NCBI RefSeq assembly: GCF_030819175.1
Contig: NZ_JAUTBJ010000002.1
Location: 1,622,001 to 1,686,000, forward strand
Direction of reading: 5' to 3'
Length of the DNA stretch: 64,000 bases
Source: Sphingomonas sp. SORGH_AS_0879
GTDB lineage: Bacteria > Pseudomonadota > Alphaproteobacteria > Sphingomonadales > Sphingomonadaceae
Below the pieces are notes generated by a model that saw only the letters and a program-made list of their open reading frames with translations, was not told the origin of the DNA and searched no databases. The position numbers and the translations under genes were made by a program. How positions within the stretch are numbered: position 1 is the first letter of the stretch; each line of letters opens with the position of its first letter. Shown piece by piece: positions 35,847 to 52,088 of this stretch.

Positions 35847-38178
35847 GCGCGGCCTATGGGCTGCGCTCTGCCTCGTCACGCCGGTCGCGGTTCAGGCGCG
35901 GGAACGGCCGGTGTTGGTCGCGCGGCCCATCCGTATCGCTCCCACGACGCTGGACATGGCTCTGCGCGAACTGGCGCGGCAGGGCGGGATCACCGTCATC
36001 ACCACCGATGACCGATTGCGCCGGGTCCGCACCCCCGCACTGACCACCGACATTCCGCCAGCCCGCGCGCTGAGGCTGTTGCTGCGTGGCACCGGATACC
36101 GCGCGGTGGCGATCGATGGGGAGGGTTTCCGCATCGTCGGGGCACCCCGCCCGCCACGCCCGGCCCCCCGACCCGCGCTGCCCCCGCCGAGTGGCAATGC
36201 GCAGGACATCATCGTCACCGCCAGCAAGCAGGGCACCGAACTGGCCCGCTATCCGGGCAGCGTCTCGGTCATCGGGCGCGGCGTCACGGTGCCGGTCGGT
36301 TCGGTCGACCTCAGCGACGTGGCGGCACAGACCCCGATCCTTCAGACCACCGCGCTGGGACCGGGGCGCAACAAGCTGTTCATTCGCGGCATCGCCGACA
36401 GCAGCTTCAACGGCGCGACCGAGTCGACCGCCAGCCTGTATCTGGACGAGGTGCAGATCGCCTTTGCCGGTCCCGATCCCGGCTTGCGCCTCTATGATAT
36501 CGGCGAGGTGGAGATCGCCGAGGGGCCGCAGGGGGCGCTGCACGGATCGGGGGCGATCGGGGGGATCATCCGGCTGACCTCCAATCCGGTGGCGCTCGAC
36601 CGGGATGCCGGGCGGCTGGAATGGGGCGGCGGGCTGGCCACCCATGGGTCGCCGAGCGGCGACGTGGCGGCGGTGGCGAACAAGGTGCTGCTGCCCGGAA
36701 CGCTGGGGGTGCGGCTGGTCGGCTATCATGCGGTCGATGGCGGCTATATCGACAATGGCCGGACGGGCGCGACCGACATCAACCGCGTGCTGACCAGCGG
36801 GTTGCGTGGCACGCTGCACTGGGACGTGGGCGATGGCTGGCAGGCCGAACTGGGCGGCGGAGGCCAGTCGATCGTCGCGCGCGATGCACAATATGTGATG
36901 AGCGAGGACGTGCTGGTCAGCCGCGCGGCGATCGCGCAACCCTCCTGGAGCGACATGGCGTTCGGTCGTCTGCTGTTGACGAAATATTGGGGCGACGGCC
37001 TGCAATTCGTGTCGGCGACCGGGCTGGTCCGGGGAGCCTCGTTCGAGCGGTTCGACGCCAGCATGCTGGGTGCGGGCCTGGCCTATCAACTCGATGGATC
37101 GAAGACCCTGTTCACGCATGAAAGCCGCCTGTCGCGGCGGCTGGCAGGCGGCGGCTCCTGGGTCGTCGGCATCAATCTGGTGTCCGACCAGTCGGTGATG
37201 GGGCGTACGCTGACCGCCAGACAGGGGGTGCGACCGGTGATCGGCGTGACCAACCTGACGCGCAGCGGCGCGATCTTCGGCGAGGCGACGCATCCGCTGA
37301 GCGCTCGGCTGTCGCTGACGCTGGGCGGGCGGGTGACGGCGGCGCGGGTCGATGGCGAACCCTCGATCCGGCCGCGCAGCGCCAATTACGTCCGGGGGCG
37401 CTCGACCACGCGGGTCGATCCGACCTTCGGCTTTTCCTGGGTGATGGCCCCGGCCTGGAGCCTGTTCGGTCGCTATCAGTCGGGGTTCCGCACCGGCGGT
37501 CTGGCGGTCGCGGCGGGCGTGGGGCGGGTCGCCAATTTCGAATCCGACTCTATCCATATGGTCGAGTTCGGCGTCCGCCGTCTGCGACGCGGGCCGACCG
37601 GGCTGTCCGCCTCGCTCAGCCTGTCGCACGCCCGCTGGACCGCGATCCAGGCCGATCTGCTCAACCGATCGGGGCAGCCGGTGACCAGCAATATCGGCGA
37701 CGCACGGGTCGATGCGCTGGAAGGCTGGGCCGAATGGGTGCCGCAGCGCGACTGGCACCTGACCGGGGCGGTCTTCGTGACGGACAACGAGGTGACCGGC
37801 GCCACCGCCGCGCTCAGCCGGGCGAAGAACCGGCGGCTGCCCGAAACGCCCAGCGTCTCGGCCCGGCTGGGTGTGGCGCGCGATTTCCGGGTGTCGCCCG
37901 AACTGATCCTGTCGGCGCGGGGGGAGGCCAGCTTCGTCGGGCCGTCGGTGCTCGGCGTCGGCGACATGTTCGACGTGCAGCAGGGCGGCTATGGCATCGG
38001 CAACCTGTCGCTGACCGCGCGCAAAGGCCGCTATTCGCTGGCTGCCACGCTCGACAACATCCTGGACGAGCGGGGCAATCGCTTCGCCTATGGCAATCCG
38101 TTCCTGCTGGGTCGGCGCAACGTCTCCACCCCGGTCAGGCCGAGGACGTTCGGGGTGCGGATGGGCGTCGATCTGTGA
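35806..38178 (+). CDS. TonB-dependent receptor with STN signalling domain (FecA-like)
   Basis: Outer-membrane transporter and signal transducer of 790 aa. After the leader (about 1-31, ending VAVQA) the secretin/TonB short N-terminal domain runs from about 40-100 (TTLDMALRELARQGGITVITTDDRLR, ARALRLLLRGTGY). A Pro-rich linker and TonB box AQDIIVTAS follow, then the plug (TPILQTTALGPGRNKLFIRGI) and barrel. The extreme C-terminus ends in Leu rather than Phe. GTG at 35806 within fecR is taken as start. The STN domain touches the FecR protein to signal ligand binding. Ligand unknown: ferric siderophore and carbohydrate are both possible. The 3' end overlaps the convergent GT2 gene by 44 bases. Confidence 0.9.
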   Translation: MGTGYCGRRTRIAERGLWAALCLVTPVAVQARERPVLVARPIRIAPTTLDMALRELARQGGITVITTDDRLRRVRTPALTTDIPPARALRLLLRGTGYRAVAIDGEGFRIVGAPRPPRPAPRPALPPPSGNAQDIIVTASKQGTELARYPGSVSVIGRGVTVPVGSVDLSDVAAQTPILQTTALGPGRNKLFIRGIADSSFNGATESTASLYLDEVQIAFAGPDPGLRLYDIGEVEIAEGPQGALHGSGAIGGIIRLTSNPVALDRDAGRLEWGGGLATHGSPSGDVAAVANKVLLPGTLGVRLVGYHAVDGGYIDNGRTGATDINRVLTSGLRGTLHWDVGDGWQAELGGGGQSIVARDAQYVMSEDVLVSRAAIAQPSWSDMAFGRLLLTKYWGDGLQFVSATGLVRGASFERFDASMLGAGLAYQLDGSKTLFTHESRLSRRLAGGGSWVVGINLVSDQSVMGRTLTARQGVRPVIGVTNLTRSGAIFGEATHPLSARLSLTLGGRVTAARVDGEPSIRPRSANYVRGRSTTRVDPTFGFSWVMAPAWSLFGRYQSGFRTGGLAVAAGVGRVANFESDSIHMVEFGVRRLRRGPTGLSASLSLSHARWTAIQADLLNRSGQPVTSNIGDARVDALEGWAEWVPQRDWHLTGAVFVTDNEVTGATAALSRAKNRRLPETPSVSARLGVARDFRVSPELILSARGEASFVGPSVLGVGDMFDVQQGGYGIGNLSLTARKGRYSLAATLDNILDERGNRFAYGNPFLLGRRNVSTPVRPRTFGVRMGVDL

Positions 38179-39052
38179 TCGCGGCGCGGGCGTAGGCGGC
38201 GAAGCCCGCCAGCACATGGCGCAGGCGAAAGGCGTGGAAGTGGCGGATGGCGGGCACCGGCCCGACGAAGCGCATCCGCAGGTTGCGAACATCCTCGCGG
38301 ATCAGCCGTCCGATGCGGCGGTCGGTCCACAGATGCTTGGCATAAAGCGCGCCGTCGCCGAAGCCATAGCCCGCCAGCAAAGCGACCGCTTCGTCCTCAC
38401 GCCTGCGGCCATGATAATGGTCGACCACGAAACCGGGATCGTAGCGGATGGGGATGCCCGCCGCCTGTGCGCGGAACAGGAAGTCGGTATCCTCGGCGGC
38501 ACGGAAGGGCGCACCCGCCCCGAAGCGTTCGTCGAACCGCCCGACCAGGCTCCGCACATCGGCGGTGAAGGCCAGGTTCGCCCCCATCACGAAGCCGCCG
38601 GGAAACCTGTTCGGGTCCGCCGTCATCGGATGATCCTCCAGCTTGACGGTGACGGGCAGGTCCGCCGGATCGCCCAGCAGGATGCGCCCGCCGATCACGA
38701 CGGGAGCGGAGAATGCGGCAAAGGCCCGGATCAGCCGGGCGAAGTAATCGGGATGCAGCACGCAATCGTCATCGGTCATCGCGATGATCCGCCCCCGCGC
38801 CGCCGCCAGCGCCATGTTGCGGGCCCGCGACAGGCCGGGGCGCGGTTCGGACAGCAGGCGGATGGTGAAGCCGCGCTCGGTCGCCCAGTAGCGCACCATG
38901 GCGGGCGTACCATCGGACGATCCGTTGTCGACGACGATCAACTCCAGCCGCGTCCCGCGCACCTGCTCCGCCGCCCGCACGATCGAGGCCAGCGTCGCGG
39001 CCAGGCTGTCGCGCCGATCGCGGGTGCAGATGAGCAGGCTGACGTCGATCAT
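38135..39052 (-). CDS. Glycosyltransferase family 2 (operon gene 6)
   Basis: GT-A transferase of 305 aa, last gene of the six-gene operon. VSLLICTRDRRDSLAATLASI opens the fold, ELIVVDNGSSDGT follows, and the metal site is DDD in AMTDDDCVLHPDYF (about 95). PFRAAEDTDFLFRAQAAG is the conserved ED region, with late aromatic/basic residues RHFHAFRLRHVLAGF. It starts with ATG overlapping the pyruvyltransferase stop (ATGA). Its own end overlaps the convergent TonB receptor by 44 bases. Donor and acceptor cannot be read from sequence. Confidence 0.88.
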   Translation of the reverse strand: MIDVSLLICTRDRRDSLAATLASIVRAAEQVRGTRLELIVVDNGSSDGTPAMVRYWATERGFTIRLLSEPRPGLSRARNMALAAARGRIIAMTDDDCVLHPDYFARLIRAFAAFSAPVVIGGRILLGDPADLPVTVKLEDHPMTADPNRFPGGFVMGANLAFTADVRSLVGRFDERFGAGAPFRAAEDTDFLFRAQAAGIPIRYDPGFVVDHYHGRRREDEAVALLAGYGFGDGALYAKHLWTDRRIGRLIREDVRNLRMRFVGPVPAIRHFHAFRLRHVLAGFAAYARAAITDRRPSAPRTSSA

Positions 39053-39960
39053 CCGGCCACCATCGCCGCCACCTCCAACGGAGAGCGGGCCCGGCGGACC
39101 AGCGGACTGGCCTGCGTCCAGGTGGCGATATAGGCACCGACCTTGCCATAATCATTGTCCAGGACGACATGCGGAATGCCGAGCAGCAGCGCCAGGATAT
39201 GGCCGTGCAGCCGGTCGGTCACCACCGTCTCCCCCCGCGCCAACAGGCGAAGCCCGCGCTCGACGCGGATACGCGACCGGGCGAGCGGATCGTCGGTGGC
39301 GACCGGCGGCTCCTCCAGCCAGTCGAGCATGACGCTTCCCCTGATGCCCGAGAGCGGCGCATCATCGCGCTCCGCCCGTTCGGCGTCGGAGCGCAGCAGC
39401 ATCAGGCAGGCGCAATCCGGATCGGCGGGGCGGGCAACCGCGCCGAGGCCGAAGGCGGAGTCTGGCGCAAGCGTCGTCGGGCAGTCGAAATGCCGTTCCG
39501 CCAGTGCGAGGCTGGCGGTGTCGCGGACATGGAGGTGAAAGTCGGGATGCTCGGTCCCCACCTTCGCGAAACGGTCGCGCTGGGTTTCGTCGCGGAAATG
39601 GATCGACTGGGGAAGCTGAACCACCCGGCGGTCGCGGAAACGAGCCAGTATCGTCTCACGGAAATGCTGGTGATGCGGCCAGATATCGCCCAGATTGCCG
39701 CCGCCATGGATCAGGATCGGACCGTGGGGGCAGGCGTCCCGCAGCGCCGCCTCGTCGAAATCGTCCCAGCGGCAGATATAGGCCGGACCGCCCGCGCCGA
39801 TGTGATGCAGACAGGCCATCTCCCCCAGCCAGATCGCGCTGTCCCCGACATTGGGATGATCGGGAAAGTCGACCAGCGCGTAAGCTTCGCCCGGTCGGAC
39901 ATGGCGACGATATAGCTCGTGCAGCAACGTCCGCTGGTGTTCGATGACGTCGCCGGTCAT
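39049..39960 (-). CDS. Polysaccharide pyruvyl transferase family protein (operon gene 5)
   Basis: Member of the family that adds ketal-linked pyruvate from phosphoenolpyruvate to sugars of exopolysaccharides or cell-wall glycans (GumL, ExoV, CsaB type), 303 aa. Seen: FPDHPNVGDSAIWLGE, GPILIHGGGNLGDIWPHH, RRVVQLPQSIHF, DTASLALAERHF and TVVTDRLHGHILALLLGIPHVVLDNDYGK, all typical landmarks in order. The ATG at 39960 overlaps the preceding stop; a longer reading to 40248 uses the antisense-like frame of the GT4 gene and is rejected. It is likely to acidify the glycan made by this operon. Confidence 0.9.
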   Translation of the reverse strand: MTGDVIEHQRTLLHELYRRHVRPGEAYALVDFPDHPNVGDSAIWLGEMACLHHIGAGGPAYICRWDDFDEAALRDACPHGPILIHGGGNLGDIWPHHQHFRETILARFRDRRVVQLPQSIHFRDETQRDRFAKVGTEHPDFHLHVRDTASLALAERHFDCPTTLAPDSAFGLGAVARPADPDCACLMLLRSDAERAERDDAPLSGIRGSVMLDWLEEPPVATDDPLARSRIRVERGLRLLARGETVVTDRLHGHILALLLGIPHVVLDNDYGKVGAYIATWTQASPLVRRARSPLEVAAMVAG

Positions 39961-41033
39961 GCGGCGATGGCGCTCGGCCCGGCGGCGCAGACGCTGGCAT
40001 AGAGCGCTTCGCACCGGTCCAGCCACAGGTCGCGGGCGAAATGCGTCTCCACCCGGCGACGGGCGACGCTGCGGGGGATGGCGATGGCGGCAAGGATCGC
40101 CCCGCCCAGCGCCGTGCTGTCGCCCGCCGGGGCGATGCACCCGGCCTCGCCCACGACCTCGCGCGCCGCACCCGCATCGAACGCCGCGACGGGCAGCCCA
40201 CAGGCCATCGCCTCGATCGCGACCAGCCCGAACGGCTCGTCCCAGCACGGCGTGAACAGGAAGACCGATGCCCGCCCCAGTTCCGCCGCCAGGGCCGTGC
40301 CGTCCAGATGCCCGCCATAGCGGATCCCACCGCCCAGCCGGGGCTCGACCTCCGCCGCCCAGTAATCCGGGTCCTCGACCGCGCCGAACAGGGTCAGCGG
40401 GACGCCTGCGATCCGCGCCGCGTCGATCGCCTTATGAGTCCCCTTGTTCGGGGTGATCCGCCCGCACCACACCGCCTCGCCATTGCCGATCGGCACGAAA
40501 GGCCAGGCGGCGGGGTCGATGGCATTGTGCAGCACCGACGCCTCGGGCGGCGCACCCTCCGGCCACCAGGCACGAAGCTGGCTGGCGGAGGTTACGGTCA
40601 GGCGGTGGCTGGGCGCGGGGCTGACCCGGACGAAGTGATGCAGCGCGTCATAGGGCGGCACGTGCAGCGAGGTGACGGTCGGCGTCACGGCGGTGCGGCG
40701 CGGCTCCAGCGGAAAGCGGTGCAGGCTGTTATTGTGCACCACGTCGAACCCGCCGCGCGCGATCCGGTCGCAGGCCTCGGCATAGCCCGCATCGACATGC
40801 GCGATCAGTTCGGGCTTGCCGCGATGCTCGGCCCAGGGGAACACCGCCTCATAATGTTCGGGCAGTACGGGATCGATGGTGAAGCGCGGGTCGCTGTCGC
40901 CGCTGGCGAACAGCACCACCTCATGCCCGCGCGCCGCCAGCCCCTCCGCCAGATACCAGCCATGCGCCTCCATCCCGCCGAGAAAGGGCTGGCGGATCGG
41001 CTGGCGGACATGCGCGAGCAGCGCGATCCTCAT
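39957..41033 (-). CDS. Glycosyltransferase family 4 (operon gene 4)
   Basis: GT-B retaining transferase of 358 aa. The N-terminal domain starts MRIALLAHVRQPIRQPFLGGMEAHGWYLAEGLAARGHEV, with a glycine-rich acceptor loop. The C-terminal donor domain has VWCGRITPNKGTHKAIDAARIAG and the E-x7-E motif in CWDEPFGLVAIEAMACGLPVAAFDAG. ATGA overlaps exist at both ends. The likely donor is a nucleotide sugar such as UDP-Glc or GDP-Man. Position next to the pyruvyltransferase suggests it builds the sugar to be pyruvylated. Confidence 0.9.
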   Translation of the reverse strand: MRIALLAHVRQPIRQPFLGGMEAHGWYLAEGLAARGHEVVLFASGDSDPRFTIDPVLPEHYEAVFPWAEHRGKPELIAHVDAGYAEACDRIARGGFDVVHNNSLHRFPLEPRRTAVTPTVTSLHVPPYDALHHFVRVSPAPSHRLTVTSASQLRAWWPEGAPPEASVLHNAIDPAAWPFVPIGNGEAVWCGRITPNKGTHKAIDAARIAGVPLTLFGAVEDPDYWAAEVEPRLGGGIRYGGHLDGTALAAELGRASVFLFTPCWDEPFGLVAIEAMACGLPVAAFDAGAAREVVGEAGCIAPAGDSTALGGAILAAIAIPRSVARRRVETHFARDLWLDRCEALYASVCAAGPSAIAA

Positions 41034-41959
41034 GCCGCGACCTGGGCGCTCGCGGCGCGCTCCTCCAGCAAGCGGATGACGCTGGCGGTGTTGGCATAGG
41101 GCTGATGGCTCTGCTGGCCGGTCAGGCTCAGGTCATCGGCATCGGGGCGGCGCAGGATGCGAATCGGGCGACCGGGCGTGTCGTCGATCAGGCCCATCAG
41201 GCGAAAGGCGTGCAGCCAATGGCCCATGGTGCGGTATCCCCATTTCTCCTCGAACAGTTCGGCATTGCGCACCACGCTGTCGATATGATGGACGGGGGGC
41301 ATGTGGTGCGGGTGGTATTGGTGATAGGCGAGGCCGCCCTTGATCCAGGCGATCGGCACGCCCGCCTTGTCGACCAGCTTGCCGAAATCGGTATCCTCGC
41401 CGCCATAGCCCGAATAGCGTTCATCGAAGCCGCCCGTCGCCAGGAAGGTCGCCCGCCGCATCGCGAAATTGAGCGACCAGAAGCAGCGATAATCCTCGCA
41501 CCGCTCGATCCCCTCCGGCGGGGGGCCGCGCCGGTCGGAATGGCGGACGGCGCGCGCCGCGAAGTCTTCATAGCGCCATTCGCCCTGGGTCGCGCCGCCG
41601 GGCAGGTACAGGACCTCGCCCATCAGCAACCCGTCCATCTCGTCCAGATAGCGGTCATATTGGGCGATCAGGTCGGGCGCGGGGATGCAGTCCATGTCGA
41701 GGAAGACCAGCTTGTCGCCGATCGCCGCCTTTGCCGCCGCGTTGCGCGCCTGGGCCAGCGGCAGGCGCGGGCCCGACACCATCATCTGGCGGATCGGGAA
41801 GGGCGCGTCGGGCAGGTCATAACCCTCGTCCTGGATCACCGCGACGATCAGTTCGACCGGGAGCAGCGTCTGACGGCTCAGGCCCAGCACCACGTTGCGG
41901 AGATGATCGGGGCGGCCCCCGGCAAGAGTGACCACCGAGATGCTGGATGGCGAGATCAT
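41030..41959 (-). CDS. Glycosyltransferase family 2 with galactosyltransferase-like C-terminus (operon gene 3)
   Basis: GT-A transferase of 309 aa. It begins ISVVTLAGGRPDHLRNVVLGLSRQTLLPVELIV. The metal motif is DMD in KLVFLDMDCIPAPDLI (about 90), and NFAMRRATFLATGGFDERYSGYGGEDTDFG is the acceptor-site segment also seen in galactosyl-/chondroitin-type GT2 proteins. The ATG at 41959 overlaps the preceding gene by 4 bases; an in-frame extension upstream is the shadow of that gene. The tail is Gln/Ala-rich. Specific sugar unknown. Confidence 0.88.
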   Translation of the reverse strand: MISPSSISVVTLAGGRPDHLRNVVLGLSRQTLLPVELIVAVIQDEGYDLPDAPFPIRQMMVSGPRLPLAQARNAAAKAAIGDKLVFLDMDCIPAPDLIAQYDRYLDEMDGLLMGEVLYLPGGATQGEWRYEDFAARAVRHSDRRGPPPEGIERCEDYRCFWSLNFAMRRATFLATGGFDERYSGYGGEDTDFGKLVDKAGVPIAWIKGGLAYHQYHPHHMPPVHHIDSVVRNAELFEEKWGYRTMGHWLHAFRLMGLIDDTPGRPIRILRRPDADDLSLTGQQSHQPYANTASVIRLLEERAASAQVAA

Positions 41960-43101
41960 GAATGGGCTCCGGCGGAATTGGGGGTGGGGGAATGATCGAG
42001 TTCGACCGGCCAGAGCCGCGCGGCCAGCGCCTCCAGCCAGTCGGCGGCGTCCTGCGCGGGGGTGTCGGCGATCATCACGCGCTGGGCGGCGGGGCGGTGC
42101 TGGCTGCGGGTTTCGGCCAGCGCGGCGGTCCAGCTTTGCGCCGAAGAGGGAAGGTGCGGCCGGACACAGGCGACGCCCGCCGCCGCCAGCGCCTCGGCCT
42201 TGCGGTGCTGCTCGTCGAAATAGCGCCATTCCGGAATGGCGAGCCAGGGCCGGGCGGCGGCCAGGATCTGCTGGCAGGTGGTGTTGCCGGTCGAGGCGAT
42301 GACCAGGTCGGCGGCGGCGACATGATCCGCCGGATTGTCGACCCAGCCGCGATGCTCGATATTGGCGGGCTCGGTGGCGTGCCAGTCGCGCACGACCGGG
42401 CCGATGGTGATCCAGCGCGAGCCCGGACGGCTGCGCGCCCCGACGCCGAGCGGGGCCTGAGCGAAGCCTTCGCCGCCGCCGCCCGACAGGACCAGGATCA
42501 CCTCTTCCTCCGGTCCGACGCCGATCCGCTGGCGGGCGAGTTCGCGCTCGGGGACGCGGGTGTCGACGCCCAGGCCGCCCGCGAAACAGGTCTTGGCGCG
42601 CATCGCCGCGTCCCATTCGGGCTGGGCCAGCGCCTCGTCGAACGCGGCGAGCAGCCCGGCGGCCCCGTCATAGGCGGCGCGGTGGCCCGGATCGCTCCGA
42701 TCGCCATGTTGCAGGATCTTCACATGCGGGACCGAGCAGATGCGCGCGAGCTGTGCGATCTCCGCCGACACGTCGCAGATCATCAGCGCGGGGTCGGCGC
42801 GGTCGAACCAGCCCGCGATCACCGCCATGGCATGCCGGATGCCCGGCCAGCCCAGCGGGGCGCAGTGGAGCGTGTCGGGCGTCGGCACCGCGTCCAGCCC
42901 GCGTGCCTCCAGCCCGGTCGGCTCGAACAGGGAGGGGATGACGACCATCTCCACCTGCGGCGGCAGCGGGGAGAAGATATCGTCGCGTGCACAGAACACC
43001 GTCACCGGCCGCTCGGGCGGCAGCGCGTTCAGGATCGCGGCGCAGCGTTCGGCATGGCCGCGCCCCTGATGGTGGACGAAATAGCCGAAGGGCCGGGTCA
43101 T
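41956..43101 (-). CDS. MurG/UGT-like GT-B glycosyltransferase (operon gene 2)
   Basis: GT-B protein of 381 aa. PFGYFVHHQGRGHAERCAAIL gives the GxGHxxR-type loop near the N-terminus. The C-terminal half has SGGGGEGF (donor phosphate loop, about 215) and DLVIASTGNTTCQQILAAARPWLAIPEWRYFDEQHRKAEALA, typical of the MurG/UDP-glycosyltransferase fold. It follows the sucrose-phosphate synthase/phosphatase gene with a 4-base overlap. It could glycosylate a sugar or lipid acceptor; no closer assignment is possible. Confidence 0.85.
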   Translation of the reverse strand: MTRPFGYFVHHQGRGHAERCAAILNALPPERPVTVFCARDDIFSPLPPQVEMVVIPSLFEPTGLEARGLDAVPTPDTLHCAPLGWPGIRHAMAVIAGWFDRADPALMICDVSAEIAQLARICSVPHVKILQHGDRSDPGHRAAYDGAAGLLAAFDEALAQPEWDAAMRAKTCFAGGLGVDTRVPERELARQRIGVGPEEEVILVLSGGGGEGFAQAPLGVGARSRPGSRWITIGPVVRDWHATEPANIEHRGWVDNPADHVAAADLVIASTGNTTCQQILAAARPWLAIPEWRYFDEQHRKAEALAAAGVACVRPHLPSSAQSWTAALAETRSQHRPAAQRVMIADTPAQDAADWLEALAARLWPVELDHSPTPNSAGAHS

Positions 43102-45137
43102 GCCGCGCTGGCCCGGATGGCGCTGCGCACCGGGATCGCGGCGGGCCTGGGATCGGCCAGACCCAGACGTTCCAGCCCCTCCAGCACGCCGCGCGCATGA
43201 TGGCCCGCGACACGCATCAAACCCTCACGCGGGGGCAGTCCCGCGAGTTCGTCGCTGGCATTGCCGACGACGATGGCATGGCCGCACGCCTCCAGCATGT
43301 CGACATCGTTGCCGCTGTCCCCTGCCGCGATGCATGCACCCAGCGGCAGGTTGAGCCGCCGGGCATAGGCCGCCACCGCCGCCGCCTTGCCGCCCATCGG
43401 CGCGAGCACGTCGATCAGCCGACCATGCGAGAAGACGGTCTTGGCGGCGATCCCCCGTTCGGCCAGCGTCGCGCGGACCCGCATCGCATCCTCCGCCGTG
43501 CCGAAGAAGCTCAGCTTGTGCGGCCCGGCGGTGTCGCGCGGCTGGGGACGCAGGCGCAGCGGCTTGAGGGCGGCGACCACCGCCTTGCGGTCCCATCCGT
43601 GATTCAACCGGGCGGAGAAGGCTGGACATTCCTGCCAGCCGCGCTGGCTCTTCAACATGATGCGCGTGCCGACATCGGTGATGAAGGCATCGGGTTCGGG
43701 CAGGCCCCATTGCGACAGGATCGCGCGCGCCATCGCGAAGGAGCGCCCCGTCGCCACGACGAAGGGAAGGCCGCTCGCCCGCCGCCATTCGGCAAACCCA
43801 TAGGCCCCCGCCGGGCAGCCGGTCAGCGTATGATCGATATCGCTCGCCAGCAGTCCCGGCGCGCGGGGCAGCCGAGCATAGAGGTTGATCGAGTCCGCGG
43901 CATAGCGCCGCCAGTCATAGCGGGCCGCCCCCGAACGCCCCGCCTCGCTCATCCGCGCATGGCATTGGGGATCGGACAATATGGTCAGGCACGCCTCGGC
44001 AATGGCGCTTTCGTCGCTCGGCTCGACCAGCAGGCCATGGTCCAGCGCCCCGACGATCTCGCTGGGGCCGCCATGGCGAGTCGCGACCACCGGCACCCCC
44101 GCCGCCGCCGCCTCGATCAGCGTCAGGCCGAAGGGTTCGTGCAGCGCCGCGTTGACGAAGATGCCGCCCTTTGCCGCCCGGTCATAGAGCGCCGCGACGT
44201 CGTGCCCGTCATGTTCGGGCGGCAGCGCGAAGCAGCCGTGCAGCGCGGGGCTTTGCGCCAGCGCCTGAAGTTCGGCCAGCACCGCGCGTTCCTCGGGCGA
44301 TCCGGGGCCCTCATGCTGTCCGGCCAGAATGACCAGATTGGCCGCGTCCCGAAGCGCTGGCGAGGCGGCATAGGCGCGGGCGAGCGCGCCGAGGTTCTTC
44401 TTGGCGACGGGCCTGGCAATCGCCAGCACGATCGGCTTGGCGGGGTCGGCCAGCATGGTGTCTAGCCGTTCGGACAGCGAGGGGCGGCTGATCGGACTGG
44501 CGTCGCGGCTGGGGACGCCGGGCGGGATGCAGTGGATGCGGCCCGTGACCGGCGCGGCATAGGCATGGACCTGCCGCTCCGCCTCGTCGCGGGTGGAGAC
44601 GATGATCGCATCGGCCCCGGCGATGGCGCTGCGCTCGGCGGCGATCCGTCCGTCCAATGCGGGGCTGTTGCCCTGATGCTTGCGCTTGTCGATGCCCAGC
44701 GCATGGGGGGTGTAGATGAAGGGGATGGCGAAGCGGCGCCGTGCCTCGGCCGCGACGGCGGCGGCGTCGGAGAAATGCGCGTGGATCACGTCGGGCAGGC
44801 GCGGCAAGCCTTCCAGATGCGCGCAGAACGCCTCGGTAAAGGCCGCCAGGTCGTTGGCCAGCGCTTCCTTTTCGAGATAGCGGTGATCGCCCGTCGCGAT
44901 CCGATCGATGGTCAGCTTGGGCGAAATCCGCTCGCTGGCCAGACCATGTTCGCGGTCCAGCGCCACATCCTCGAACAGCCGGGTGACGATCGAGACGTGA
45001 TCCGTATCAATATGATCCGCCTGCGCCATCGCTGCATCGAGAATATAGGCGATATGGCCGCCCGTGTCGGCGGTGATGCCATAATGGACAGGCGGCGATT
45101 TCAGGCAGCCGCCAAGTGCCAGATGCAGGATGAACAA
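43098..45137 (-). CDS. Fused sucrose-phosphate synthase / sucrose-phosphate phosphatase
   Basis: Predicted to make sucrose from UDP- or ADP-glucose and fructose-6-phosphate and to remove the phosphate, 679 aa. The N-terminal GT4 synthase (1-430) has TADTGGHIAYILDAA (the SPS DTGGQ motif with His for Gln), YTPHALGIDKRKHQG, ADAIIVSTRDEAERQ, IARPVAKKNLGALARAYA and NAALHEPFGLTLIEAAAAGVPVVATRHGGPSEI. The C-terminal HAD-IIB phosphatase (about 440-670) has LLASDIDHTLTG (DxDxT), VVATGRSF, DAFITDVGT and IAAGDSGNDVDML. It starts with TTG at 45137 after AAAGGGG. It is the first gene of a six-gene operon of overlapping transferases. Mannosylfructose-phosphate synthase is a related alternative. Confidence 0.87.
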   Translation of the reverse strand: MFILHLALGGCLKSPPVHYGITADTGGHIAYILDAAMAQADHIDTDHVSIVTRLFEDVALDREHGLASERISPKLTIDRIATGDHRYLEKEALANDLAAFTEAFCAHLEGLPRLPDVIHAHFSDAAAVAAEARRRFAIPFIYTPHALGIDKRKHQGNSPALDGRIAAERSAIAGADAIIVSTRDEAERQVHAYAAPVTGRIHCIPPGVPSRDASPISRPSLSERLDTMLADPAKPIVLAIARPVAKKNLGALARAYAASPALRDAANLVILAGQHEGPGSPEERAVLAELQALAQSPALHGCFALPPEHDGHDVAALYDRAAKGGIFVNAALHEPFGLTLIEAAAAGVPVVATRHGGPSEIVGALDHGLLVEPSDESAIAEACLTILSDPQCHARMSEAGRSGAARYDWRRYAADSINLYARLPRAPGLLASDIDHTLTGCPAGAYGFAEWRRASGLPFVVATGRSFAMARAILSQWGLPEPDAFITDVGTRIMLKSQRGWQECPAFSARLNHGWDRKAVVAALKPLRLRPQPRDTAGPHKLSFFGTAEDAMRVRATLAERGIAAKTVFSHGRLIDVLAPMGGKAAAVAAYARRLNLPLGACIAAGDSGNDVDMLEACGHAIVVGNASDELAGLPPREGLMRVAGHHARGVLEGLERLGLADPRPAAIPVRSAIRASAA

Positions 45138-47841: not shown

Positions 47842-49752
47842 TCAGCGCTTGGTGAAACCGCCGATCCCGGCGATCGCCAGCTTTTCGGCGGGCTTGGACA
47901 TTTCCGCGAAGGTCAGCCGCAGATAGCGGACCGGGCGGACGCTGGTGAAGGGCAGGCGCTGGGTCGAGAGGGCATAGGCGATGTTGGAGAATTCGCCCGA
48001 CCCCGCCGGGGTCCAGCTTTTCCCGTCGACGCTCGTCTCCGCGACATAGCCGCGCGGCGGGGCGGCGTCGATCATCACCTGGCGCGAGGGGGTCAGGCTG
48101 AAGCCCGCGACATCCTGCGTCTTGCCCATGTCGATGGTCACGCTGGCGGGCTTGCCGGGCGTGGGGGCAGGTTGGACCCAGATGGTCTTGGCGTCATTGT
48201 CGAGCAGCTTTTCCGCCCCCGGCGCGCTGGCCGTGACGATGGCCCAGCCCTTGCTATCCATGACCGTCGGGTCGCTCGACACGATGGCGGGGACGGGGAC
48301 CGGCGCGACGCTTTTGAAGAGCGAGATCTCGCTGATCGCGGGGCAGACGGCTGCGTCGACGATGCGCAGGCGTAGGCGGCGTGCGGTGATCGGCGCGGGC
48401 AGGCGGATGATCCGCTGTGCGCTGATGCACTCATGCTCGGCCAGTTGCTGCCATGCGCCGTTCACCTCGGCATCGACCGCGAAGCGCGTCACGCGGACGC
48501 CCAGCGGCAGATATTCGCGGATGCGGATCAGGTCGAAGCTGCGCCCCGGTGGCAGATCGAGCGTCAGGCTGGGCGTGGTCACGCCATCGGGTGCGGACCA
48601 ATAGGTATCGCGGTTGCCGTCCAGCACTTTGGCCGCCTCGAACCCCTTGCCGCGCACATGGCTGGCGCTCGCCACCGCGCCTTGGGCGAGGTCGCTTGCG
48701 AAGCTGGCGCGGATCGCGTCGCCGAAGCTTTTCAGGATCTTCACATCCTGATCGGGGATGCGCCCGCGCCGGTCGGGCGGCAGGTTCAGGTTCATATTGG
48801 TGCCGCGCGCGACCGAGGTGTCGAAATAGTCGACCAGATTTTCAGGGGATCGGACCTTGGAATCCTCGTCGGCGTGATAGAACCAGCCGGGCCGGATCGA
48901 GGTGTTGGTCTCGGCAGGCCACCAGAGCGCCCCCCCGCGCACGCCCGAATTGCCTTCGGACTGGACGTACGGATGGTTCGGCATGGTCGGCCAGCAGGGA
49001 TCGCCCGCCACGCCATCCTCATTGCCGACCCAGCGAATGTCCGCGCCGAGCGGATCGAAGGTGCAGGCCATGGGCTGGTGCTGGTGGACCAGCGCGATGA
49101 TCGAGGGCCAGTTATAATATTTGGGCGCATCGATCTGCCGCGTCTCGCGCGCCCCGCCATAATAGCCGTCGCCGCCATTGGCCCCGTCGAACCAGAATTC
49201 GAACAACTCGCCATAGCCGGTGCAGAGTTCGACCACCTGCTTGCGGAAATACTCCACATAAGCGGGCCGACCATATTCCGGGTGGTTGCGATCCCAGGGT
49301 GACAGATAGATGCCGAACGCGAGCCCGGCGCGCTTGCAGGCGTCCGACATTTCGCGAACGATATCGCCCTGGCCGTTCTTGTAGGGCGCGTTGCGGATGC
49401 AGTGCTCGGTCAGCCGGGTCGGCCAGAGGCAGAAGCCGTCATGATGCTTCGCCGTCAGGATGATGCCCTTCAAATTCCCCGCCTTGGCCGCCGCGACGAT
49501 CTGGTCGGCGCTGAAATCGCTGGGGTTGAAGGTCCTCGGGTCTTCGTCGCCATAGCCCCATTCCTTGTCGGTGAAGGTGTTCATGGCGAAGTGGATGAAG
49601 GCATATTGCTCGCGCTGATGCCAGCGCCACTGCCGCGCCGAGGGGACCGCGCCATAAGGGGCGGGGGCACCCGGCCCGGCTTTGGCGAAGGCGGGCGTGG
49701 CGGAGGCGACGAGCCCGGTGGCGAGGACGGCGCGGCGGGAGAAATCGGTCAT
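47842..49752 (-). CDS. GH29 alpha-L-fucosidase with F5/8-type carbohydrate-binding domains
   Basis: Removes alpha-linked L-fucose, 636 aa. The Tat/Sec-type leader MTDFSRRAVLATGLVASATPAFA carries a near-twin-arginine. The GH29 barrel (about 35-360) has EQYAFIHFAMNTFTDKEWGYGDE, ILTAKHHDGFCLWPT and the nucleophile Asp in ELFEFWFDGANGG. Two discoidin-like domains follow (TYWSAPDGVTTPSLTLDLPPGRSFD; KTIWVQPAPTPGKPASVTIDMGK), of the F5/8 type (CBM32-like). Last gene of the glycan operon, 23 bases after the GH92 stop. A longer reading upstream would run into GH92 and is discarded. Fits removal of core or antennary fucose from N-glycans. Confidence 0.92.
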   Translation of the reverse strand: MTDFSRRAVLATGLVASATPAFAKAGPGAPAPYGAVPSARQWRWHQREQYAFIHFAMNTFTDKEWGYGDEDPRTFNPSDFSADQIVAAAKAGNLKGIILTAKHHDGFCLWPTRLTEHCIRNAPYKNGQGDIVREMSDACKRAGLAFGIYLSPWDRNHPEYGRPAYVEYFRKQVVELCTGYGELFEFWFDGANGGDGYYGGARETRQIDAPKYYNWPSIIALVHQHQPMACTFDPLGADIRWVGNEDGVAGDPCWPTMPNHPYVQSEGNSGVRGGALWWPAETNTSIRPGWFYHADEDSKVRSPENLVDYFDTSVARGTNMNLNLPPDRRGRIPDQDVKILKSFGDAIRASFASDLAQGAVASASHVRGKGFEAAKVLDGNRDTYWSAPDGVTTPSLTLDLPPGRSFDLIRIREYLPLGVRVTRFAVDAEVNGAWQQLAEHECISAQRIIRLPAPITARRLRLRIVDAAVCPAISEISLFKSVAPVPVPAIVSSDPTVMDSKGWAIVTASAPGAEKLLDNDAKTIWVQPAPTPGKPASVTIDMGKTQDVAGFSLTPSRQVMIDAAPPRGYVAETSVDGKSWTPAGSGEFSNIAYALSTQRLPFTSVRPVRYLRLTFAEMSKPAEKLAIAGIGGFTKR

Positions 49753-49775
49753 CTTCAAGGCGGCTCCGGGAGGGA

Positions 49776-52088
49776 TCAGGCAGGCAGGTGGTCGAAGGAG
49801 GGCGGGCGGTCCTTGGGGTTGCGACCAAAGGCGCGGTTGGGCTGCGCGCCCATGGTGAAGGACAGGGTGCCGCCCTTGGACAGCGTCGCATGGTCGATCC
49901 AGCTCTTGGTCCAGGGACGACCGTTCCAGGTCACCGACTGGATATAGGGCGTGGTCGGACCATTGCCCTTGGCCTCGATGGTCAGGGTTCGATCCCCGCC
50001 CATCGCCACCTGCGCCCGATCGAACAGCGGACCGCCGAACACATAGGCGCCGCTGACCGGATCGACCGGATAGAAGCCGAGCGCGGAGAAGAGGAACCAC
50101 GCGCTCATCTGGCCGCAATCGTCATTGCCGATGATGCCGTCGGGCGCGTTCTTGTACATCTCGGTCAGCAGGCGGCGGACCATGGCTTGGGTTTTCCACG
50201 GCGCGCCGACATAGGCGTAGAGATAGGCGGCATGCTGGTCCGGCTCATTGCCATGCGCATATTGCCCGACCAGCCCCGAAATGTCCGGCGGCGCGTTCTT
50301 GGGCAGCGTCGAGGGCGCGTTGAACAACTCGTCCAGCCTGGCCTCGAACTTGGCGTCGCCGCCCATGTGGCGGATCAGGCCGTACACGTCATGCTGGTTG
50401 AGGAAGGTCGCCTGCCAGCCATTGGCCTCGGTGTAATCCCGCCACCAGGGCTTGGGCATATGGCCGAGTTGGACGGGATCATAATCCTTCCACCAGCTAC
50501 CGTCATCGAAGCGCGGACGGGCGAAACCGATCGAGGGATCGATGACGTTGCGCCAATTGCCCGAGCGCTTGAGGAGGCGATCGGCCTCCGCCGTCTTGCC
50601 GACCCGGCGCGCGATGTGCGACGCGGCCCAGTCGTCATAGGCATATTCCTGCGTCCGGCTGACGCTCTCGAACCATTTGTCGGCGGGGACATAGCCCTTG
50701 GCGTCGTACAGGTCGCGGCCCTTGCTATTGTCCAGATCGGGCGCGGAGAAGTCGAAGCTGCGCTTGGCGATGCCGGGCCAGGCGGCGGCGTAATCGGCGG
50801 GAATGCCCTTCACCATCGCCTCGGCCATGATCGGCGTGCCGTGCCAGCCGATCATGATGCCCGTTTCCTTGCCCTGAAGCGTCCAGACCGGCGGGCCGTA
50901 GAGGCTCTGTTGGGTCTGGCGGATGACGTCCTCGATCAGCTTCCTGGCCTGTTCGGGCTGGGTCAGGATCAGCCAGGGGTGCAGCGCGCGGTACGTGTCC
51001 CAGGTGGAATAGGTGCTGTAGGCGAACTGGCCAGCGGGTGTCGTGTGCTCCCGCCCGTCCAGCCCGACGTAACGCCCGTCCACGTCGGAGAAGAGCGTCG
51101 GCGCGATCAGCGTGTGGTAATTGGCCGAGGCCATGATCGTCCGCTGATCCGGCGTCCCGCCCTCGACCCGGACCCCGCCCAGCGCGGTCGCCCAGTGGCG
51201 TTGCGCCGTCTCCAGCACGCGACCGAAGTCCCAATGCGACGCCTCCGCCGCCAGATTGGCCTTCGCCCCCGCCACATCGACTGCCGAGATGCCGCAACGG
51301 ATCAGCAGCGGCGCATCGCCCATTTCGTCGAAATGAAGCGCCGCCTTCAACCGGTTGCCCTTGGCGTTGGTGCCCGCAACCGGCGCATCGCCGTCACCAT
51401 AAAGCTGGATACGGCTCGGCCTCTTCGACAATTGCATCGCGAAGAAGATGCGCCGTCCCTTGGCCCAGCGGAACACGCGGCGGGTGCCGGTGATCGTGCC
51501 ATCGGGCTCGATGGTCAGCTCGGCGTCGGTAATCAGCGGCCTGGCATCGCTCTTGTCGAGGACCAGGTGCGACAGGTCGATCAGGACATGGCCCGGCCCC
51601 TGGGGATAGGTATAGCGGTGCCACCCCGTCCGCTCGGTCACGGTCAGTTCGGCCAGAACGCCGGACTCCAGCTTGACCCGGTAATAGCCGGGTTTGGCCA
51701 TCTCGTCGGAGTAGCGCTGGCGATAGCCTTCGTCCGGGTTGGACAGCGGCCCCGGCACCAGCTTCAATTCCCCGCGCGTCGGCACCACCAGCACGTCCAG
51801 CATGTCGCCGATCCCGGTGCCCGACAAATGGGTATGGCTGAACCCCATGATCGAGCCGTCGCCATGGTGATAGCCCGAACAGGTGTCCCAGCGCTCGACA
51901 TCGGTGTCGGGGCTCAACTGCACCATGCCGAAGGGCAGGACCGCGCCGGGATAGGTATGACCGTCACCGCCCGTCCCGACGAACAAATTGGGTCGGGTCG
52001 GTAAGGCGGGCAGGCTGGCCATCACACCGCGAATGGGGAGGGCGGCGAGCGCGGTTCCGGCCAGGAGCGCGCGGCGGCTCAGGATCAT
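49776..52088 (-). CDS. GH92 alpha-mannosidase (exo-alpha-1,2-mannosidase type)
   Basis: Ca2+-dependent exo-alpha-mannosidase of 770 aa. The leader MILSRRALLAGTALAALPIRGVMA (twin Arg) is followed by the GH92 start LFVGTGGDGHTYPGAVLPFGMVQLSPD and SGYHHGDGSIMGFSHTHLSGTG. Later come GIMIGWHGTPIMAEAM, EYAYDDWAASHIA, YAHGNEPDQHAAYLY and the invariant GNDDCGQMSAWFLFSALGFYPVDP with the catalytic acids. The start at 52088 overlaps the GH125 stop (ATGA) and has GGGAGA upstream. It trims alpha-1,2/1,3/1,6-mannose from high-mannose glycans; linkage needs assay. Confidence 0.94.
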   Translation of the reverse strand: MILSRRALLAGTALAALPIRGVMASLPALPTRPNLFVGTGGDGHTYPGAVLPFGMVQLSPDTDVERWDTCSGYHHGDGSIMGFSHTHLSGTGIGDMLDVLVVPTRGELKLVPGPLSNPDEGYRQRYSDEMAKPGYYRVKLESGVLAELTVTERTGWHRYTYPQGPGHVLIDLSHLVLDKSDARPLITDAELTIEPDGTITGTRRVFRWAKGRRIFFAMQLSKRPSRIQLYGDGDAPVAGTNAKGNRLKAALHFDEMGDAPLLIRCGISAVDVAGAKANLAAEASHWDFGRVLETAQRHWATALGGVRVEGGTPDQRTIMASANYHTLIAPTLFSDVDGRYVGLDGREHTTPAGQFAYSTYSTWDTYRALHPWLILTQPEQARKLIEDVIRQTQQSLYGPPVWTLQGKETGIMIGWHGTPIMAEAMVKGIPADYAAAWPGIAKRSFDFSAPDLDNSKGRDLYDAKGYVPADKWFESVSRTQEYAYDDWAASHIARRVGKTAEADRLLKRSGNWRNVIDPSIGFARPRFDDGSWWKDYDPVQLGHMPKPWWRDYTEANGWQATFLNQHDVYGLIRHMGGDAKFEARLDELFNAPSTLPKNAPPDISGLVGQYAHGNEPDQHAAYLYAYVGAPWKTQAMVRRLLTEMYKNAPDGIIGNDDCGQMSAWFLFSALGFYPVDPVSGAYVFGGPLFDRAQVAMGGDRTLTIEAKGNGPTTPYIQSVTWNGRPWTKSWIDHATLSKGGTLSFTMGAQPNRAFGRNPKDRPPSFDHLPA

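Follow-up and report, generated by a model that had tools for sequence, protein, structure and literature searches.

Gene organisation of the operon

The window analysed here is a stretch of 64,000 nucleotides from Sphingomonas sp. SORGH_AS_0879 (contig NZ_JAUTBJ010000002.1, positions 1,622,001 to 1,686,000 of the forward strand), in which six minus-strand open reading frames (ORFs), running from 45137 down to 38135, form an operon, designated g1 to g6. The first gene, g1 (43098..45137), encodes from a TTG start a fused protein of 679 amino acids (aa) with a GT4 half resembling sucrose-phosphate synthase (SPS) and a HAD-IIB half resembling sucrose-phosphatase (Pfam GT4 and S6PP). It is followed by two genes of the conserved core, g2 (41956..43101, 381 aa), a GT-B glycosyltransferase of the GT1/GT28-like type, and g3 (41030..41959, 309 aa), a GT2 glycosyltransferase with a galactosyltransferase-type domain (Glyco_transf_7C), and then by g4 (39957..41033, 358 aa), a GT4 glycosyltransferase, g5 (39049..39960, 303 aa), a Pvg1p-like ketal pyruvyltransferase (PF04230, PS_pyruv_trans), and g6 (38135..39052, 305 aa), a GT2 glycosyltransferase. 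Pfam recovered all the domains assigned in an initial annotation made from the sequence alone, the GT28 C-terminal domain of g2 lying barely above its cut-off (22.4 against 22).

The six genes overlap at all five junctions, as first described, each by the four bases ATGA (43098-43101, 41956-41959, 41030-41033, 39957-39960 and 39049-39052); the starts that give the overlaps of g3 (41959) and g5 (39960) are internal to longer ORFs. Among 21 loci, four-base overlaps were found at g1/g2 in 21, at g2/g3 in 14 and at g3/g4 in 21, and in the 16 g5-bearing loci of that set at g4/g5 in 15 and at g5/g6 in 16, as counted by a script that, of the start codons lying within 45 bases, favours those giving an overlap of 4 bases or 1 base and is thus biased towards overlaps. 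The same gene order is seen again in other genomes, so the operon is not a chance arrangement.

Distribution of the cassette

A pattern scan, with each species represented by one genome, identified 72 loci, some with the phosphatase half only, and a plasmid search gave 140 records (a Methylobacterium record being without annotation), with 18 regions examined. The locus set used below comprises 53 distinct loci with g1, g2 and g3, the window locus not being counted; L018, whose contig has the same length as that of L037, was removed before a count of 54, and L200, at the same place as L029, after it. Carriers of the three genes include Sphingomonas, Novosphingobium, Erythrobacter, Aurantiacibacter, Croceicoccus, Loktanella, Sulfitobacter, Paracoccus, Pontibrevibacter, Falsirhodobacter, Roseomonas, Jiella, Methylobacterium and Notoacmeibacter, with one carrier (L199) outside the class, and the closest g1 DNA is that of Sphingomonas sp. 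GM_Shp_1 (95.8%). Among the plasmid regions, those of Acidithiobacillus and Paracoccus sp. TOH are without the core and that of Paracoccus yeei holds g1 and a g4 relative only; the Flavobacterium flanks hold a g1 relative only (1e-6), with the SPS-type Gln discussed below.

Genome-wide co-occurrence was counted for g1, g2, g3 and g5. Of the 196 genomes examined from the order, 15 have g1, 17 have g2 and 17 have g3, and all 15 genomes with g1 also carry g2 and g3, in agreement with the proposal of one coordinated pathway. Whether the downstream genes occur mostly without g1, which the initial annotation named as evidence against it, has a split answer: g2 and g3 each accompany g1 in 15 of their 17 genomes, and g5 does so in only three of ten. 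Among 240 genomes sampled from the class, the two that carry g1 are also the two that carry g2, so the cluster is sparse. These patterns bear on the explanation that g1 makes sucrose as an osmolyte only, its link with an unrelated glycan set being no more than shared transcription. Classical sucrose clusters do join fusions of SPS and sucrose-phosphatase with invertase and fructokinase-type genes (annotated in Acidithiobacillus, with similar neighbours in Flavobacterium as judged from sequence starts only), but genes of this kind are not among the recurring neighbours of the core in the annotated plasmid regions, and the co-occurrence of g1, g2 and g3 extends to rearranged gene orders, making this explanation very improbable.

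Variants of the cassette were also observed. The Methylobacterium-type loci L108, L196 and L197 hold g1, two g3-like genes, g2, g4 and two more GT4-like genes, an enlarged cassette belonging to a second g1 subclade with a 'QGCL' motif. A module of PIG-L deacetylase, acyl-CoA-dehydrogenase-like and methyltransferase genes adjoins the g1 core in L031, L047, L117 and L198 and is spread out in L199.

The g1 family

The initial annotation described g1 as a full fusion of SPS and sucrose-phosphatase. This stands for the architecture; both halves score below the NCBIfam cut-offs, with 307.6 bits against the equivalog cut-off of 576 for TIGR02472 (sucrose-phosphate synthase), which was passed by 19 of 28 matching genomes in a 299-genome phylum sample, and 119.5 against 209.75 for TIGR02471 (sucrose-phosphatase). 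The phosphatase half matches S6PP (PF05116) at 162.6 bits, above the cut-off of 20.3 and by far ahead of other phosphatase families, and its HAD catalytic residues are intact in the core proteins (six of seven positions in 28/28, the Lys in 27/28). In the other half, His158, Glu331, Arg249 and Glu339, the catalytic and donor residues of the Thermosynechococcus elongatus enzyme (TeSPS), are all kept in 37/37 core proteins.

In a quick, midpoint-rooted tree (L117, with a broken frame, and L106, its start lost in the ORF call, being excluded), the g1 core formed its own clade of 35 proteins with support of 99, neighbouring a group of 14 SPS-type proteins (support 82), of which ten lie above the TIGR02472 cut-off and four were labelled by hand (two Flavobacterium, Acidithiobacillus and Pirellulaceae). 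It is thus placed outside the SPS clade, and is separate also from the clade of mannosylfructose-phosphate synthase (MFPS), a name given by JGI for several of those rows. The sequence evidence indicates that the g1 family is distinct from standard SPS and has its own partner enzymes; g1 may make sucrose or a sucrose-like primer. Several of the SPS-type fusions (L128, L109 and others) differ from the core family in lacking catalytic residues of the phosphatase half. The P. yeei pair of g1 and a g4 relative (L115:10001-13159), which falls outside the 53 loci as it has no g2 or g3, stands alone beside a plasmid replication gene, and its g1 is without the His and the phosphate-binding residues kept by the 36 others, so it is possibly decaying or changed.

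The g4 glycosyltransferase

A relative of g4 occurs in 45 of the 53 loci, with a different GT4 in most of the other eight, and the gene is inverted in Erythrobacter-type loci. Of the proteins with solved structures, tetrahydrobiopterin glucosyltransferase and glucosylsucrose synthase are closest to g4; it aligns to the latter, tll1591, over residues 1-350 (1.3e-29), and the donor residues Arg179 and Lys184 of that enzyme align with Arg and Lys in g4.

Exchange of the genes for a putative acidic group

Among the 53 loci, with flanks of 2 to 14 kb seen on each side, g5 was found in 17, all with g6, a sulfotransferase relative in 20, neither in 16 and both in none. The six-gene order does recur elsewhere, as the initial annotation suggested should be sought, but with g5 and g6 at only 17 of these loci; the idea of a fixed six-gene pathway is not sustained, and the two genes appear to be an add-on of one Sphingomonas lineage. 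The 15 genomes of the order with g1 comprise seven with the sulfotransferase, three with g5 and five with neither. The sulfotransferase (sought at 1e-40) was found in seven of the 196 genomes, adjoining the core in all seven, and relatives of g5 in ten, three of them with g1. The sulfotransferase relative matched Sulfotransfer_3 in the three cases tested. A tree of 51 g1 proteins (the near-copies L110 and L116 and the broken frame of L117 excluded) split the pyruvyl and sulfotransferase loci with one change. Near the core, 19 of the 53 loci carry a relative of a Crp/Fnr-type regulator (the one tested matched HTH_Crp_2); the 17 pyruvyl loci have none.

The assignment of g5 is supported by its PF04230 score (98.1 bits, cut-off 25.3), by its match to Pvg1p (5AX7) at 3e-38 and by its retention of Asp106, Arg217, Arg337 and His168 of that enzyme. 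Pvg1p is the galactose pyruvyltransferase of fission yeast which, according to the available text of its description, is unlike g5 in being a eukaryotic enzyme of the Golgi whose substrates are oligosaccharides of glycoproteins (PMC4872226).

Proposed pathway and its alternatives

The operon product is tentatively proposed, at somewhat less than even confidence, to be a small oligosaccharide, anionic and non-reducing, with sucrose or a sucrose-like disaccharide as its starting unit. As judged from family and residues, the glycosyltransferase half of g1 would use UDP-glucose to glucosylate a phosphorylated ketose, in all likelihood fructose 6-phosphate rather than another, and the HAD half would then dephosphorylate that product. 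Up to three sugars may be added by g2, g3 and g4; in the Sphingomonas lineage g6 would add another, probably galactose, which g5 would cap with a pyruvate ketal, and in many sister lineages a sulfotransferase would take the place of the pyruvyl step. We infer the sucrose, the added sugars and the biological role alike; a part in stress or osmotic responses would be a guess. The product class named in the initial annotation, an acidic oligosaccharide or glycolipid, remains the best one, and the sulfotransferase of the related loci agrees with it.

Several observations weigh against this proposal. Gln51 of TeSPS (the Gln of GGQ), which contacts fructose, is replaced by His in 36/37 and Ala in 1/37 core proteins, a count partly circular for four of them (L141-L144), which were assigned to the core from the N-terminal motif and later placed with it by the tree; the Gln is kept in 14/14 SPS-type, 3/3 Halothermothrix-type and 9/9 MFPS proteins. 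An acceptor other than fructose 6-phosphate is therefore possible. The g1 model fits MshA, an enzyme that does not make sucrose, no less well than TeSPS, and the g1 of Falsirhodobacter (L118:2232-3446) is annotated with the glycosyltransferase half alone, lacking the HAD half. The sucrose-holding Trp10 and Tyr18 of glucosylsucrose synthase are Arg and Leu in g4, as seen in the window protein only. Neither acidic-group gene is present within the limited flanks seen at 16/53 loci, and the swap between sulfate and pyruvate is a single event on the g1 tree, so that it is suggestive of the importance of charge without being repeated evidence. Further, two genomes of the order (G062 and G172) hold divergent relatives of g2, g3 and g4 in another cluster without g1. 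These clusters (L194 and L195) also contain another GT2, acyl-CoA-dehydrogenase-like, PIG-L deacetylase and methyltransferase genes, and represent a sister cluster.

The changed acceptor residue and the separate clade together leave the 'dedicated sucrose synthesis' of the initial annotation unsupported, and they lead to the main rival explanation, in which g1 primes the same extension and acidification with some other non-reducing disaccharide, made with a polyol phosphate or with a different ketose phosphate or donor sugar. This explanation agrees with six nearly fixed differences that set 28 core proteins apart from 10 of the SPS type, and with the scores below the NCBIfam SPS cut-offs; among these differences, positions 22 and 28 lie within loop 1 of TeSPS, 28 being the Gln51 site, and position 244 is two residues past the equivalent of Arg249. 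However, the donor, phosphate and phosphatase residues are still SPS-like, S6PP is far ahead of other phosphatase families, and the MFPS-specific states Asn253 and Met335 are absent from the core proteins, so that a different primer is considered rather unlikely.

The product could also be a glycolipid of the cell surface or decorate lipopolysaccharide or capsule, with the g1 product ending in a lipid-linked glycan. Pyruvyl groups are common on surface glycans, and nucleotide-sugar genes follow the core in Sulfitobacter pontiacus W028. No flippase, polymerase or initiating phosphoglycosyltransferase was detected by Pfam, however, among 16 window proteins (the operon and near flanks, three of the ten flank ORFs being without a match and possibly not genes), nor do such genes recur in the annotated plasmid regions, and the surface glycan is held to be improbable. 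The operon thus lacks a polymerase and flippase, as first noted, and with its near flanks is without the marks of a Wzx/Wzy-type polysaccharide locus. Because the operon holds no export or polymerisation gene, the proposed sucrose-type product is more likely to be an oligosaccharide, soluble or lipid-anchored, than a polymer.

Comparison with known systems

Among the papers listed by the literature searches, none describes a pathway matching the cluster. Mannosylfructose-phosphate synthase and phosphatase (mfpsA/mfppB) of Agrobacterium, reportedly described by Torres and Salerno in 2007, are said to be alike in pairing an SPS-like GT4 with a HAD phosphatase to give a non-reducing disaccharide with fructose; they differ in being separate genes, in their clade and in their residues. 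The MFPS locus of Paracoccus sp. TOH has none of the downstream glycosyltransferase set.

Cyanobacteria exposed to salt and heat stress convert sucrose into glucosylsucroses, and in T. elongatus an SPS-type gene lies near a GT4 gene (tll1590/tll1591) whose product elongates sucrose, as given in the available text of PMC9909042. This pairing, and the resemblance of g4 to tll1591, recall the present operon. TeSPS, in contrast, has 455 residues, too short a chain for a phosphatase half, and the same text describes a single elongating enzyme that adds glucose only, and no acidic group (PMC9909042). Glycolipids of Mycobacterium smegmatis contain pyruvylated oligosaccharides ending in a (1->1)-linked glucose disaccharide, which we read as trehalose-type (PMC6801904, as far as available); this favours the surface-glycan alternative above. 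They share with the proposed product a non-reducing disaccharide end, a short chain and pyruvate ketals as acidic groups, but have a glucose-only (1->1) end instead of a sucrose type, the comparison being one of product structure. The word sucrose does not occur in the available text of that review of pyruvylation (PMC6801904).

Flanking genes

Downstream, a convergent TonB receptor gene is found with FecR and sigma-factor genes, and upstream lies a divergent GSDH-like gene. The 3' ends of g6 and the TonB receptor ORF overlap by 44 bases (38135-38178), with an overlap of 23 bases annotated in S. parapaucimobilis (L110). An alpha-L-fucosidase gene lies near the operon (47842-50118), and L110 has a fucosidase with GH2, GH3, GH92 and GH125 genes upstream of g1; these perhaps constitute a glycan-use locus unrelated to the cassette.

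Significance

Taken more broadly, and with slightly greater reserve than the product of the single operon, the cassette may specify an undescribed class of anionic oligosaccharides, mostly alphaproteobacterial, with a sucrose-type primer made by a neofunctionalised fusion of SPS and sucrose-phosphatase and an exchangeable acidic cap, the sulfate being ancestral, provided that the drawn root of the g1 tree is right, and the pyruvate ketal derived. For annotation, the family is now called 'HAD hydrolase' or 'sucrose-phosphate synthase', though the evidence points to a separate family. The analysis predicts a metabolite class that could be sought in common bacteria of plants and the sea, together with the genes to be tested for it. 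The one replacement of pyruvate by sulfate, or the reverse, suggests that the conserved feature may be the negative charge itself.
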